IMG/VR virus record: IMGVR_UViG_3300025759_000935
Location: 1 to 20,042 of that record
Strand: one strand, 5' to 3'
Origin: a virus
DNA length: 20,042 nt
In this document: in pieces, positions 13,222-19,900 of the stretch
Layout of the letters: each line of letters starts with the position of its first letter
Position numbering within the stretch: the stretch's first letter is position 1
Position numbers and translations under genes: made by a program
The notes under the pieces: generated by a model
Told to the model about the DNA's origin: nothing
The model's database searches: none
The model's input: only the letters and a program-made list of their open reading frames with translations

Positions 13222-13575
13222 ATGTTCGATCACTTCGGGGTACGGTTAGTACCCACACTTCGCGGAGCAACTATTGCTCAAATTCGTCTTAAGTATAACC
13301 ACCACATGGCTACGGAAGTAAAGGCTATGGCTAAGGACCTAAACCTTGGTGCATGCAGTTGCTACAATATCCATAGCAAGAAGGGTACTGAGAAGACTGA
13401 GGTTATGTTAGAGTTCGATTCTTCCCCAGATAACTGGTTGAAGTTCTCTGCATTGAAGACCGAGATATCTATCCTCCAGAAGGAGTTGGATATCAAGAGG
13501 CTTCGTAACGTCAGAGCCTCTATTGTAAAGGGCATAGTAGTAGACGACTTTAGCCCTTTCGTTATCAACGATTAA
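13222..13575 (+). CDS. Unknown early protein, 117 residues
   Basis: First rightward gene. I chose ATG at 13222 (MFDHFGVRLVPTLRGATIAQ) rather than the TTG 30 nt upstream because the leader AATCCAAGCAAC-ATG matches that of the gene at 14015, and the upstream extension would overlap the promoter dyad. The sequence has an N-terminal beta/basic segment, a central Cys-containing LNLGACSCYNIHSKK, an acidic EVMLEFDSSPDNWLKFSALK, and a C-terminal helix ISILQKELDIKRLRNVRASI ending in VVDDFSPFVIND. I do not recognise the family. A strong hairpin follows it. Confidence 0.75.
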   Translation: MFDHFGVRLVPTLRGATIAQIRLKYNHHMATEVKAMAKDLNLGACSCYNIHSKKGTEKTEVMLEFDSSPDNWLKFSALKTEISILQKELDIKRLRNVRASIVKGIVVDDFSPFVIND

Positions 13576-13585
13576 TTAGTAACAT

Positions 13586-13619
13586 GAGCCTGCACTATCA
13601 TACATAGTGTGGGCTCTTA
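13586..13619 (+). terminator. Hairpin terminator after the first early gene
   Basis: GAGCCTGCACTAT (13586-13598) pairs with ATAGTGTGGGCTC (13604-13616) around a five-base CATAC loop: 13 pairs, two of them G-T. The tract that follows (TTAATACTCTT) is only weakly T-rich, so termination may be partial and the next small genes may be read through. Confidence 0.55.
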
Positions 13620-13631
13620 ATACTCTTCCCT

Positions 13632-13799
13632 GTGCCTAATAAAGTAACAGGTGAGTTCGTCACTACAAGTGACCTCATCAAAATGGAGGACAAAGAGTTC
13701 CTCTTCAATTCAGCTCCTGATACTAAGGGGTATTACAAATCCTACTGGACTGTTAACCGTGGAGACATAGTGTTCACAGTTCAGAATATCAACCTGTAA
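13632..13799 (+). CDS. Small unknown protein, 55 residues (GTG start)
   Basis: GTG at 13632 (reading MPNKVTGEFVTTSDLIKMED) to TAA at 13797-13799; an internal ATG at 13683 would give 38 residues. The frame is open back to a stop near 13605. The composition looks protein-like, with an aromatic stretch GYYKSYWTVNRGDIVFTV forming beta strands. The stop overlaps the next gene's ATG as TAATG, indicating a coupled pair. The start codon choice is uncertain. No family is recognised and there is no signal or TM segment. Confidence 0.55.
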   Translation: MPNKVTGEFVTTSDLIKMEDKEFLFNSAPDTKGYYKSYWTVNRGDIVFTVQNINL

Positions 13800-13951
13800 T
13801 GAAAGTTCAACGATTCTTCGAACGATTCTTTGCCCTCGCAGCAGTAGCTATGGGGGTAATTGGTATGATCTCTATTGTAAAGGGTGCATACCTACCCGGC
13901 TTGTTCGGGTGTGCAATATCTGGAGTTTTCCTTATTGCAGCGAAAAAATAA
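13799..13951 (+). CDS. Small two-TM membrane protein, 50 residues
   Basis: ATG at 13799 overlapping the previous stop; stop TAA at 13949-13951. MKVQRFFERF is a basic amphipathic start, followed by two hydrophobic segments (about residues 11-27 ALAAVAMGVIGMISIV and 33-47 LFGCAISGVFLIA) and a terminal AAKK. The hairpin topology with a short turn is holin- or excluder-like. Another small membrane protein with the same style of ending (VLSAKK) lies at 14323. Its last codons run into promoter copy 2. Function unknown; membrane association is predicted with good confidence. Confidence 0.65.
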   Translation: MKVQRFFERFFALAAVAMGVIGMISIVKGAYLPGLFGCAISGVFLIAAKK

Positions 13952-15504: not shown

Positions 15505-16107
15505 ATGAAAAACATGATTAACAGCGGTTCACTCAGCACCCTCAAAGCTGGGAACTCACTCCTCGTTCACGCACGTCGTGTACAAGGTGGTAAATTGCAA
15601 TTGGAGTTGGCAGAGGTCATTACCTCAGCGAATGCTACCCCCAATTTGATTTCCATGTTCAACAAATCCGACTCCCGTTTCTCACAACAGGGTGCACGTC
15701 GGGCTTGGCAATCAGTAGAACCTACTGACGCAAGCGAATTGTTGGGCATTGACTTGTCAGATTCTAACCCCGGTTGGATGACTGATGATCGAGGTCGTGA
15801 GGTTCTTCCTCTGAACATTCTCAACCCATCTGTTGGGGAAGGTTCAGTACTTCGTGTACGTGTGTCAGAGACCACTGTACCTACTCCTTACCAAGCTTCT
15901 AACCTTGAGACAGAGGCTAAGCGTAAGGGTCGTGACGGTGACTTCATCCTGCACAAAGGTCAGTACATCTTCAGTAACACCGAGTTTGCACTCAGCACTC
16001 CAGGTGGTACCGTAGACCATGTACTTTTGGAGGCTGATGCTGCACCTGCAGCTGGTGTCACTCAGACACAAGCCGCCTCAAGTCCTTTTACGGACATTAA
16101 CTCGTAA
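15505..16107 (+). CDS. Unknown 200-residue protein (possible ssDNA-binding role)
   Basis: ATG at 15505, but a Shine-Dalgarno-like AGAAGGA (15496-15502) is only two bases away; the second ATG at 15514 gives 11-nt spacing and may be used. The product has a beta-rich N-terminus (GSLSTLKAGNSLLVHARRV, GKLQLELAEVI), a polar middle with RRAWQSVEPTDASELLGIDL, a charged EAKRKGRDGDFILHKGQYIF region and an Ala/Thr-rich C-terminal tail ending AASSPFTDINS. The layout (beta core, flexible tail) and place before DNA polymerase could fit a single-stranded DNA-binding protein, but the tail lacks the usual acidic DDIPF end, so this is speculative. Confidence 0.7.
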   Translation: MKNMINSGSLSTLKAGNSLLVHARRVQGGKLQLELAEVITSANATPNLISMFNKSDSRFSQQGARRAWQSVEPTDASELLGIDLSDSNPGWMTDDRGREVLPLNILNPSVGEGSVLRVRVSETTVPTPYQASNLETEAKRKGRDGDFILHKGQYIFSNTEFALSTPGGTVDHVLLEADAAPAAGVTQTQAASSPFTDINS

Positions 16108-16118
16108 GAGTTACAAGG

Positions 16119-16142
16119 TGTAGGGGGTTGAACTCCCCTACA
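16119..16142 (+). terminator. Hairpin downstream of the 15505 gene
   Basis: TGTAGGGG (16119-16126), loop GTTGAACT, CCCCTACA (16135-16142), a perfect 8-bp stem followed by TCTTC. Most likely the terminator of the 15505 gene; it may alternatively be the first helix of the structured RNA that follows. Confidence 0.65.
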
Positions 16143-16690
16143 TCTTCACATGCGGCTATTAACCGCTAGTGTGCCACACATGAGAGAAGCAGAGTGATAA
16201 CTGCAGTGGAAAGCATGCCCGTAAGGCGTACGTGCTATCAGATTTTCAGGATACCTGTTAGACTATGAAACATTAGCGCCAGCTAAAGGTGGAGTCATCC
16301 TTGAGATAGCAGGAGTCTGGCGTACGTCGGGGCATTAACTTATTAAAGACAGACAGCGAGCTATACAACCAAGAAGTTGGGCAGCCTAAGCCTCAACTGA
16401 GGATGCTTGTTGTTAAAAACCTCTGAGAGTAAATCAGGGGTTGCTACAGTTGGTTACTGTAGTATCTGCAGCTAGAGTCGCGACTAGTAAACGCGGAGAA
16501 AGATGGACTAACCGCCCGAGATATGTGTAAGTACAGCATATCTGCTAAAATTGTGCTTAACAGTGCCAAACATACTGTAATCCTGAACTAGTTGTCTACT
16601 AGTATCAGGTGGCTATTATACGTTGCTTGGATATAACGTAGAGCTTCACCTTGAGCATTTGCACTTGTTGCATTTGCTCATAGGTGTTGC
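16143..16690 (+). ncRNA. Candidate large structured non-coding RNA
   Basis: About 550 nt without a plausible ORF but full of helices on the plus strand: GCGG/CCGC (16152-16166); a three-way junction closed by TGCTATC (16233-16239)/GATAGCA (16305-16311) that encloses CAGG/CCTG (16247-16257) and GACT/AGTC (16261-16296) capped by TTAGC/GCTAA (16273-16286); CCTC/GAGG (16391-16402); AACCTCTGA/TCAGGGGTT (16418-16442); CTACAGT/ACTGTAG (16444-16462); AGATATG/CATATCT (16519-16543); CCTGAACTAGT/ACTAGT-A-TCAGG (16582-16609); TACGTT/AACGTA (16619-16640); and a layered hairpin CACCT, GAGCA, GCA with their partners (16647-16686). Size, ornate folding and location near tRNAs in a phage recall the GOLLD/ROOL class of large ornate RNAs, but I cannot assign a family. 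Ends are approximate. Confidence 0.7.
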
Positions 16691-16692
16691 TT

Positions 16693-16738
16693 AAAATAAA
16701 TTCAAAAACAATCCCTAACCTCGAGCTCATCACGGAGC
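16693..16738 (+). promoter_or_regulatory. Repeated early promoter candidate, copy 4
   Basis: AAAATAAATTCAAAAA at 16693-16708, immediately after the last hairpin of the structured RNA, then the dyad GCTC-ATCACG-GAGC at 16725-16738. CACTATCATCAAGCT follows at 16752, echoing the repeat at 14744. It would drive the small gene at 16789 and the DNA polymerase. Confidence 0.55.
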
Positions 16739-16788
16739 ATCATTATTTGTTCACTATCATCAAGCTAATCTCTTGCCCTATGGGACAC

Positions 16789-17010
16789 ATGAAAAATATC
16801 TACATGCTAATGAAGCAAGATCGTATCGAAGGTCTTTCAACAGCGTATAACAAAGCTATTGATGCTGGAGAGGATTCCTTTATATTTGGGGGGCAATCCT
16901 ACACAATCCAGTATGCTAGCACAATTTTGAACTATGCACACAAAAATCCACTTCATTTCCCAGACTCAAGACCTAACTCACAAGGAGAACCTGAACCTGT
17001 CGACGATTGA
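16789..17010 (+). CDS. Small unknown protein overlapping the polymerase gene
   Basis: 73 residues from ATG at 16789 (MKNIYMLMKQDRIEGLSTAY). An ATG at 16780 adds three residues; a TTG at 16684 would run through the promoter box and is rejected. The core GLSTAYNKAIDAGEDSFIFGGQ followed by YTIQYASTILNYAHKN reads as a compact helix-hairpin-helix-like unit I have the impression is common in small phage proteins, but I cannot name it. The last 77 nt overlap the start of DNA polymerase in another frame, so the two are translationally linked. The Pro/Glu-rich tail (NSQGEPEPVDD) lies in the overlap. Confidence 0.65.
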   Translation: MKNIYMLMKQDRIEGLSTAYNKAIDAGEDSFIFGGQSYTIQYASTILNYAHKNPLHFPDSRPNSQGEPEPVDD

Positions 17011-18844
17011 ACAGTGCGTAGAGTACTGTAAGACTAAGCAGGTTCTTGGGGTAGATACTGAGACTGAAGGTTTCGACTTCACCTGTAAGAAGATGATCAT
17101 GTTTCAGATCGGGGATCTTGAACAGCAGTTCGTTATTGATACACGCTTTGTATCTATCGAGCCGCTACGAGAGGTCCTTGAGTCAGAGACAATAGTCAAG
17201 ATCTTTCACAACGCTAAGTTTGACTACAAGTTCATCAAGATGTGGGCTGGGATCAAAACCAGATGCATCTACGACACGTTCTTAGTGGAGAAAGTCCTGA
17301 ACTGTGGTAAAGCAGACTACGGGTATTCTCTGGCTAAGCTGTGTGACAGGTACCTGAACGTAGAGTTGGACAAGTCGACACGTAATCAGTTTGTTGGGTT
17401 AGTTGGGCAACCATATTCAGTTCAACAGATTGTGTACGGTGCTAAGGACGTTGAGTATTTGATTCAACTACGACAGCATCAGCTCCCTAAGATTACAGAG
17501 TTGGAGTTGGGTATGATTGTAGATCTGGAGAATGAAGCTGTGGTTGCGTTCTCAGAGATTGAGTACGAAGGTCTGATGGTAGACAAGGATGCATGGACTG
17601 AGCTTGCTAAAGACAATGTCAAGGCAGCTAAGGATGCTGAACTACTACTAGATGACTACGTGCTTGCTGATCAACGACTACAGCATTACAAACTCCCAAT
17701 ACAAGCTGATCTCTTTACACCGCAAGAGGAGCTCAGAAAGACTCACATCAATTGGAACTCACCTAGTCAGATACTAGAGCTGTTCCAGAATCTAGAACCC
17801 AAACTAGAGGATGTGAATGGGAAGAAGCTGTACAAGTTTAGACGTAAGCACACGCTTATTGACCAGTACGTTAAGTACAAGGAGAAGTCTAAGCTTGCTA
17901 ATGCGTACGGTACAAGCTTCTTCAAGTTTGTAAGCTGTGATGGGAGGGTACACACGAACTTTCAACAGATCCTAGATACAGGTAGGGTTAGTTCTAGTTC
18001 CCCAAACATGCAGCAGATACCTTCGGATAACAAGTACCGTAATTGTTTCATAGCACCTGAAGGGTGGGTGTTTGTTAGTTCAGACTACTCATCTCAGGAG
18101 CTAAACGTTATTGCTTATGGTAGTCAAGATCCTGTGTTTCTATCTGCTCTACAGAATAATCAAGATCTGCACTCTGTATGTGCTGATTTGGTTTTCGGAC
18201 AGGAATGGGTAGATGCAGCTGAACCTGACTGTGCTTACATGAAGTCGAAAGCTAAGTGCAATTGTAAAAAGCACAAGCAGCTTCGTACTTCTGTAAAGAC
18301 AATCAACTTTGGATTGGCTTATGGTATGGGTCCGCACAAGCTGGCTGATACCTTGGACATATCTAAGAAGGAGGCAGAAGAACTAATCGAAAAATACTTT
18401 CAAGCCTTCCCATCTATCAAGAGCTTCTTGGATTCTCTTGGGGACTTTGGGAAACGTAGAGGGTATATCCGTACGTTCAGACCATACAAACGTAGACGCT
18501 GGTTTAGTAACTGGTACCCACGTATGTATGACAATCGTTCAGCAATGATTGAGCTCGGCTCTATTGAGAGAGCATCTAAGAATACCCCTATACAGGGTAG
18601 CTCAGCTGATATGACAAAGCTCGCACTAGTGAAGATCTTCAACGAGGTCAATACTTCACAGTGGGCGGGGGATGTCAAGATTGTTATGACTGTGCACGAT
18701 CAGATAGATACTATCTGTAGAGAGGGTGTAGCTGAGCAGTGGAAAGAGAGAATGACAGAGCTGATGGAGGAAGCTGCTAAGGTTATAATCAAGAACGGGC
18801 TGCTCAAGGCAGACACTAACATCTCTAAGACTTGGGAGAAGTAA
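16934..18844 (+). CDS. polA: Family A DNA polymerase with 3'-5' exonuclease
   Basis: 636 residues from ATG at 16934, the only ATG before the exonuclease domain. Exo motifs: VLGVDTETEGF (Asp41, Glu43), FHNAKFD (Asp97) and YGAKDVEY (Tyr168, Asp172), so proofreading should be active. Polymerase motifs: DTGRVSSSSPNMQQIP (348-363), motif A SSDYSSQEL (Asp384), motif B KTINFGLAYGMG (Lys455-Gly466), SPIQGSSADM-like TPIQGSSADM (551-560), and motif C VHDQ (587-590), where the usual Glu of HDE is Gln. A Cys/Lys-rich insertion (CAYMKSKAKCNCKKHK, 433-448) precedes motif B. There is no 5'-3' exonuclease domain, as in many phage PolAs. It is the replicative polymerase of this phage. Confidence 0.92.
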   Translation: MHTKIHFISQTQDLTHKENLNLSTIEQCVEYCKTKQVLGVDTETEGFDFTCKKMIMFQIGDLEQQFVIDTRFVSIEPLREVLESETIVKIFHNAKFDYKFIKMWAGIKTRCIYDTFLVEKVLNCGKADYGYSLAKLCDRYLNVELDKSTRNQFVGLVGQPYSVQQIVYGAKDVEYLIQLRQHQLPKITELELGMIVDLENEAVVAFSEIEYEGLMVDKDAWTELAKDNVKAAKDAELLLDDYVLADQRLQHYKLPIQADLFTPQEELRKTHINWNSPSQILELFQNLEPKLEDVNGKKLYKFRRKHTLIDQYVKYKEKSKLANAYGTSFFKFVSCDGRVHTNFQQILDTGRVSSSSPNMQQIPSDNKYRNCFIAPEGWVFVSSDYSSQELNVIAYGSQDPVFLSALQNNQDLHSVCADLVFGQEWVDAAEPDCAYMKSKAKCNCKKHKQLRTSVKTINFGLAYGMGPHKLADTLDISKKEAEELIEKYFQAFPSIKSFLDSLGDFGKRRGYIRTFRPYKRRRWFSNWYPRMYDNRSAMIELGSIERASKNTPIQGSSADMTKLALVKIFNEVNTSQWAGDVKIVMTVHDQIDTICREGVAEQWKERMTELMEEAAKVIIKNGLLKADTNISKTWEK

Positions 18845-19766: not shown

Positions 19767-19900
19767 GTCAAGGTGGCGGAATTGGTAACGCCTGTGGGTT
19801 AGCTACCACAGAAAAAAGGAAAGGTTATAAATGTTTTTGACAAGTGTACATAGTCTTAAACTACCGACCCCGATTGCAGGTTCGAGTCCTGCCCTTGACA
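19767..19900 (+). tRNA. Oversized tRNA-like gene (Leu-like, about 50 nt insert)
   Basis: 134 nt, five bases after the previous one. Acceptor GTCAAGG/CCTTGAC, D-arm GGCGGAATTGGTAACGCC (leucine-like) and T-arm GCAGG-TTCGAGT-CCTGC are all perfect, discriminator A. After the D-arm comes CTGTGG-GTTAGCTA-CCACAG (19792-19811), a 6-bp stem with an 8-nt loop instead of 7, then about 60 nt of A/T-rich sequence including AGTCTTAAACT, which contains a UAA (Leu) anticodon-like triplet in a CTTAAAC context. An intron or insertion in the anticodon region of a Leu tRNA is the simplest reading. Exact splice points cannot be set by eye. Confidence 0.6.

Follow-up and report, generated by a model that had tools for sequence, protein, structure and literature searches.

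An isolated copy of the 23S rRNA L1-stalk head recurs in unrelated phages and may capture the host ribosomal protein uL1

A 74-nt segment of a phage genome (16241-16314, + strand) is the head of the L1 stalk of 23S rRNA, comprising T-loop 1, H77, H78 and T-loop 2 and corresponding to E. coli positions 2107-2179. The window, i.e., the whole stretch of DNA analysed (positions 1-20,042), is an entire IMG/VR virus record with no ends detected, and its genes include those for the large subunit of terminase, a portal protein, and a family-A DNA polymerase. The stalk head recurs in unrelated phages and is a selected RNA, not a stray scrap of rRNA. Around the host ribosome, phages are known to deploy proteins and tRNAs as well as ornate RNAs whose purpose is unassigned. 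In our estimate, the chances lean somewhat (roughly 0.55) toward a phage noncoding RNA that displays this head to bind the host ribosomal protein uL1. The wider proposal, to which we give an even chance, is that an undescribed and widespread class of phage RNA shows the L1-stalk head in trans and captures uL1 and/or tRNA elbows, reprogramming or sequestering host translation. No earlier description of such a phage RNA was found in the open-access literature searched; if the proposal is true, this would be, to our knowledge, the first time that a functional rRNA-domain copy has been found to serve a virus as a decoy.

The L1-stalk head in the window

A covariance model (R3) derived from the stalk heads of ten bacterial rRNAs matched 16241-16314 with 52.9 bits and E=4e-12, the next best match in the window reaching 9.8 bits; E-values of the models built in this analysis are rough, and the separation in bits is large. 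From a domain V profile HMM of eleven diverse 23S sequences, this stretch was the only match in the window (E=5.6e-7). When plasmid records were searched with sensitive blastn, the matches were to 23S rRNA genes from Phyllobacterium, Thioclava, and Bosea, and the best match was an alphaproteobacterial 23S with 80% identity over 64 nt (16248-16311; E=3e-4 in 7.3 Gb). The full LSU model and the profile searches found no other LSU segments elsewhere in the record, which is indicative that the module is not part of a functional 23S rRNA. Some phage records in INPHARED (e.g., OR844775.1, OR850018.1, PQ800148.1) carry ordinary host 23S sequences 80-90% identical to the query, which are probably contamination.

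The elements of the stalk head lie in the correct order and with the correct spacing in the window. T-loop 1 is represented by the conserved segment CAGGAUA (16247-16253), with its core AGGAUA at 16248-16253 (E. coli 2114-2119), and T-loop 2 by CUUGAGAUA (16300-16308; E. coli 2165-2173), in which 16304 is the equivalent of A2169. H77 is paired at 5/5 positions between CCUGU (16254-16258) and GCAGG (16309-16313). The base of H78 is paired at 4/4 between GACU (16261-16264) and AGUC (16293-16296; p=0.61), and the distal hairpin of H78, CAUUAGC-GCCA-GCUAAAGG (16271-16289; core UUAGC/GCUAA p=0.93), is paired at 6/7, the exception being an A-G mismatch, and contains an additional A. The tertiary pair 2111-2147 is present as U-A; the purine at 2112, a contact of the tRNA elbow, is not kept (U16246). 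All these elements are on the + strand, as is the 121-nt supporting arm (16215-16335) that carries the module at its tip on three stems (16215-16220/16330-16335, p=0.85; 16225-16233/16320-16328, p=0.94; 16239-16244/16314-16319, p=0.61). The first-pass annotation had described a nested three-way junction at 16233-16311; a nested arm is indeed present there in the MFE fold, and it is this arm that we identify as the L1-stalk module.

Compared with the bacterial L1 stalk (H76-H78), the module is 73% identical to those of Phyllobacterium and Thioclava over its length and has in common with it the helix order, both T-loop segments, and the tertiary pair 2111-2147. It differs in that it stands alone, without the rest of 23S, on an unrelated stem in place of H76, in that H77 is built from another paired sequence, and in that 2112 is U. 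Model R3 gave no match in 80 loci from related phages or in 48 related records searched whole, two GOLLD loci included.

Recurrence in other phages and selection on the module

We then scanned 2.9 million IMG/VR viral contigs with a degenerate pattern of the stalk core, followed by a looser one, and scored the matches with model R3. Isolated stalk heads were found in nine further contigs of 22-413 kb, representing at least six further phage lineages: L144 (412 kb) and L145 (409 kb), L147 and L152 (∼105 kb each and related to L144), L149 (194 kb), L150 (295 kb), L151 (209 kb), L146 (80 kb), and L215 (22 kb). As L144, L145, L147, and L152 belong to one lineage, the independent sample is about seven. 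Left out of this count were L148, a false positive of the pattern; L154, which is a true 23S and not an isolated module; and two contig-end cases, L143:3785-3857 and L153:10-82, where canonical stalk heads may be either isolated modules or cut-off 23S genes.

The window and the nine contigs carry exactly one module per record, and the full LSU model run on these whole records found no 23S segment besides the module at E<=0.01. No gene for ribosomal protein L1 was found in the ten records, some of which may be incomplete since IMG/VR commonly contains partial sequences from uncultured viruses, and the control search was positive in 14/14 genomes. The L146 phage is distantly related to that of the window, with 33% identity in the terminase and 38% in the polymerase; the other carriers share no terminase with the window, and L150 shares only a distant polymerase match. 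About half of the other loci (L144, L145, L147, L149, L152) have the module inside tRNA arrays, with tRNA-Arg directly after it in L144, L145, L147, and L152; no tRNAs were found near the module in the stretches of L146 and L215 examined. The related phages L145 (4042-4076) and L152 (4216-4248) each have, on the minus strand a few kb before the module, another short stretch resembling LSU (profile 1908-1942, E about 2e-4), and a Group I intron (L151:227-439, 51.3 bits) lies ∼1 kb before the module of L151.

The first-pass annotation had proposed a covariation test on homologous loci, and compensatory changes are present, in the module only. The alignment is a small set of nine phage copies, three of them from one lineage. 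Across these copies, all five pairs of H77 have changed on both sides with 100% of cells paired, and two-sided changes occur at 6/7 pairs of the distal hairpin of H78. Overall, 90.2% of cells are paired, two-sided changes are found at 12/16 pairs, and the covariation score reaches 0.681, where shuffles average 0.199 and 0/500 attain the observed value; when the partners are shifted by one, two, or three columns, the score falls to 0.07-0.15. The T-loop segments are invariant except at one A/G position, with AGGAUA and CUUGARAUA each in 9/9 copies; across the ten rRNAs, the T-loop 1 core is nearly invariant, with one AGCAUA. Seven of the nine copies retain the tertiary pair 2111-2147, one of them with a swap from U-A to C-G. 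Two H77 positions, 2121-2177 and 2124-2174, never vary in rRNAs and vary in a paired fashion in the phages, as would be expected if the ribosomal context were gone and the shape kept. The stems carrying the module occupy the same place with different, lineage-specific sequences, and in blastn between the gaps the module alone aligns, except within the L144/L147/L152 group and for minor matches between L149 and L152.

The re-paired H77, the invariant T-loops, and the differing supporting stems therefore identify the module as a selected RNA. That it is a captured rRNA fragment devoid of function, a relic or an assembly artefact, is very improbable, even though its nearest named relative is bacterial 23S and IMG/VR also holds contigs with true 23S such as L154. 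A relic or chimera would lose pairing, whereas 5/5 H77 pairs have been re-paired with different bases; moreover, the flanking stems have been rebuilt in each lineage, and it is ever the same ∼73-nt piece, alone, that is found in at least seven lineages. The Rfam LSU model already flags some of these copies as 'rRNA fragments', which are normally dismissed.

Possible partners of the module

In the ribosome, uL1 grips H77 at about 2120-2127 and extends into the H76-78 pocket, and the tRNA elbow is contacted by stacking of A2169, whose partner G2112 lies alongside (PMC3602588). Position 2112 is a purine in 10/10 aligned rRNAs and is U in six of the nine phage copies, including that of the window, and for this reason the contact with tRNA seems to be under weaker constraint than the other parts of the module. 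Since the shape of the head is kept and the purine at 2112 is lost in most copies, we favour uL1 as the main target, followed by capture of the tRNA elbow and then by a uL1-responsive leader. In this favoured reading, the gap would yield a + strand noncoding RNA in which a complete stalk head (the H77-H78 fold and two T-loops) caps an arm, and the module would most likely act in trans on host uL1. Free uL1 could be titrated by the module, which would also relieve the repression of its own operon by uL1 and leave some ribosomes without uL1; alternatively, during infection the RNA could tether uL1 to a ribonucleoprotein of the phage. That the RNA is transcribed, that it binds uL1, and that it has any influence on translation is what we infer here. 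Several observations weigh against the uL1 reading: half of the other loci lie within tRNA arrays and would be equally suited to tRNA binding, A2169 is kept in 9/9 copies, and the larger RNA differs wholly between lineages, so that any shared overall mechanism is hypothetical.

Interlocked T-loops are a portable dock for the tRNA elbow, and RNase P J11/12-J12/11 and T-box stem I belong to the same motif class as the stalk head (PMC4810234, PMC5309774). The module could likewise bind phage or deacylated host tRNA, e.g., to hold, protect, or sort it, a possibility that we rate as rather unlikely, though ahead of the leader discussed below. Further examples of this portable motif have been predicted (PMC4810234), both T-loop segments including A2169 are invariant in the phage copies, five loci lie within tRNA arrays, and the window itself has tRNA genes close to its right end, ∼3 kb downstream of the module. 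Yet the partner of A2169 (PMC3602588) is U and not a purine in 6/9 copies, L146 and L215 have no tRNA nearby in the stretches examined, and, because the same T-loops help to form the pocket for uL1, their conservation fits either partner. Unlike in the RNase P and T-box docks, the structural context of the module is that of the L1 stalk, and tRNA binding is hypothetical.

Precedent for recognition of extra-ribosomal RNA by uL1 comes from its operators in rplK-rplA mRNAs, which imitate this very site (PMC10931766). A cis-acting leader of the same kind, tying expression of the small ORF and the polymerase to free uL1, is doubtful in our view. An ORF does follow the module at a distance of ∼50-75 nt in L150, L146, and L215, and in the window the module precedes the small ORF and the polymerase. 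However, the downstream genes are unrelated by Pfam and too varied across the loci for a leader function to unite them: the next gene is tRNA-Arg in L144, L147, and L152 and is 650-770 nt away in L149 and L151. Nor was an L1 gene found in any of the ten records, some of which may be fragments. In contrast to the operators, the phage RNAs carry the full head with H78 and both T-loops, have no linkage to an L1 gene, and often lie in tRNA arrays. If the mRNA operators are counted as the same kind, the present case would instead be a new form of molecular mimicry with the uL1 site as its model.

A recurring and maintained copy of a ribosomal arm offers a concrete candidate partner, uL1 or the tRNA elbow, and hence a function that can be tested by binding. 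It also shows that parts of rRNA can be reused by viruses outside the ribosome.

The surrounding RNA and its gene neighbourhood

The true noncoding gap spans 16108-16779 (672 nt) on the window, between a 200-aa gene of unassigned function (15505-16107, +), which is a conserved neighbour of the polymerase in relatives too, and a small ORF (+, likely start at 16780) that precedes the DNA polymerase A gene (16934-18844, +; PHROG 17, E=2.9e-108). The stretch had been annotated as gene-free, and rightly so: within 16143-16683 the longest ORF is <=42 aa on both strands, and all three forward frames are riddled with stops. In L002, the nearest relative by polymerase (80% identical), the corresponding gap is only 162 nt; the element is therefore either an insertion in the window's phage or a loss in L002. 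A 13-bp hairpin just 3' of the 200-aa gene (16115-16146, +; pair probability 0.93; no T-run here) probably marks the 3' end of that gene, because relatives carry terminator-like hairpins there; those of L060, L009, and L066, read from the sequence, have T-runs at the equivalent position. Searches of 15900-16950 for promoter or terminator signals gave none above chance. About 200 nt with two terminator-like hairpins follow the 200-aa gene immediately in L066 (3027-3225), L008 (3018-3216), and L009 (3543-3740), and these regions are 96-97% conserved although the neighbouring genes differ. The ∼810-nt gaps of L008 and L066 were considered as homologous RNAs and rejected, as they consist of a gene and the 200-nt terminator region.

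Outside the module, the fold of the other ∼480 nt (structure predicted over 16143-16694, +) is a prediction from one sequence, with neither homologue nor covariation. The first-pass annotation had counted about ten clean helices at a density far above that of an untranslated gap. Most of these helices were borne out as predictions, including hairpins at 16352-16414, 16418-16442, 16443-16463, and 16583-16608 (predicted pair probabilities mostly >0.9), and a layered terminal hairpin is predicted as described (16641-16692, +; pair probability 0.96-0.98). The exceptional density was not: the fold z of -2.6 to -2.8 at 16143-16690 (0/100 shuffles fold as well) is ordinary for this genome, where coding windows of 548 nt give -2.0 to -3.1 and the antisense strand of the same stretch gives -3.6. 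The value becomes -5.2 once the strong hairpin at 16115-16146, just outside that stretch, is included. The + strand stretch 13403-13950 folds more strongly, with z -5.7. An 8-nt direct repeat, GGCTATTA, noted near the two ends of the structure is present at 16154 and 16611 but is attributable to chance, since 11/100 shuffles equal or exceed its copy number.

No relatives of the rest of the RNA were found by blastn against phages or 50 related-phage records; the plasmid search gave only rRNA matches, at the module; single-sequence covariance models of the RNA (R1 and R2) had no match in relatives; and exact-pattern scans yielded chance matches only, e.g., within a coding gene of L097. The whole ∼550 nt was also considered as a decayed 23S domain V, which was rejected as nhmmer with filters off finds the L1 stalk only and the H89-type partner strand is missing.

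The region had been suggested to be GOLLD, ROOL, a divergent relative, or a new class. The proposed cmscan against Rfam returned no family at E<=10 on the region apart from four chance matches; the ROOL model gave no match at that threshold and the GOLLD model was silent across the whole record, while the same pipeline recovered a true GOLLD (RF02032) at 211.6 bits in the related phage L075. Membership in either family, or a divergent relationship to one, is hence exceedingly improbable. The likeness is that GOLLD and ROOL are large structured phage RNAs, frequently near tRNA genes and of unassigned purpose (PMC12286853), and that L075, a relative in the lineage, does carry GOLLD. The window RNA has neither sequence nor covariance-model similarity to them, though; the GOLLD of L075 sits 1 kb upstream of the 200-aa gene and not after it, and the L1-stalk model is silent on L074 and L075. 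The suggestion of a new class of structured phage RNA is supported for the module, by its homologues and covariation, and not for the other ∼480 nt.

The GOLLD of L075 occupies 1440-2285 (3' part 1881-2280), ∼1 kb upstream of the 200-aa gene, and an 81% identical copy is found in a second relative (L074:1389-2221). Another structured RNA class is possibly present in L060 (1760-2530), an unannotated noncoding gap of ∼770 nt with z -6.0 for 1673-2072 and no Rfam match; conserved blocks matching it occur in L008, L066, L009, and L014, and a tRNA T-arm-like GGGGTTCGATTCCC lies near 1920. In the window itself, 19767-19900 holds a 134-nt Rfam tRNA match (40 bits) that was not called by ARAGORN and may be a tRNA with an insertion.
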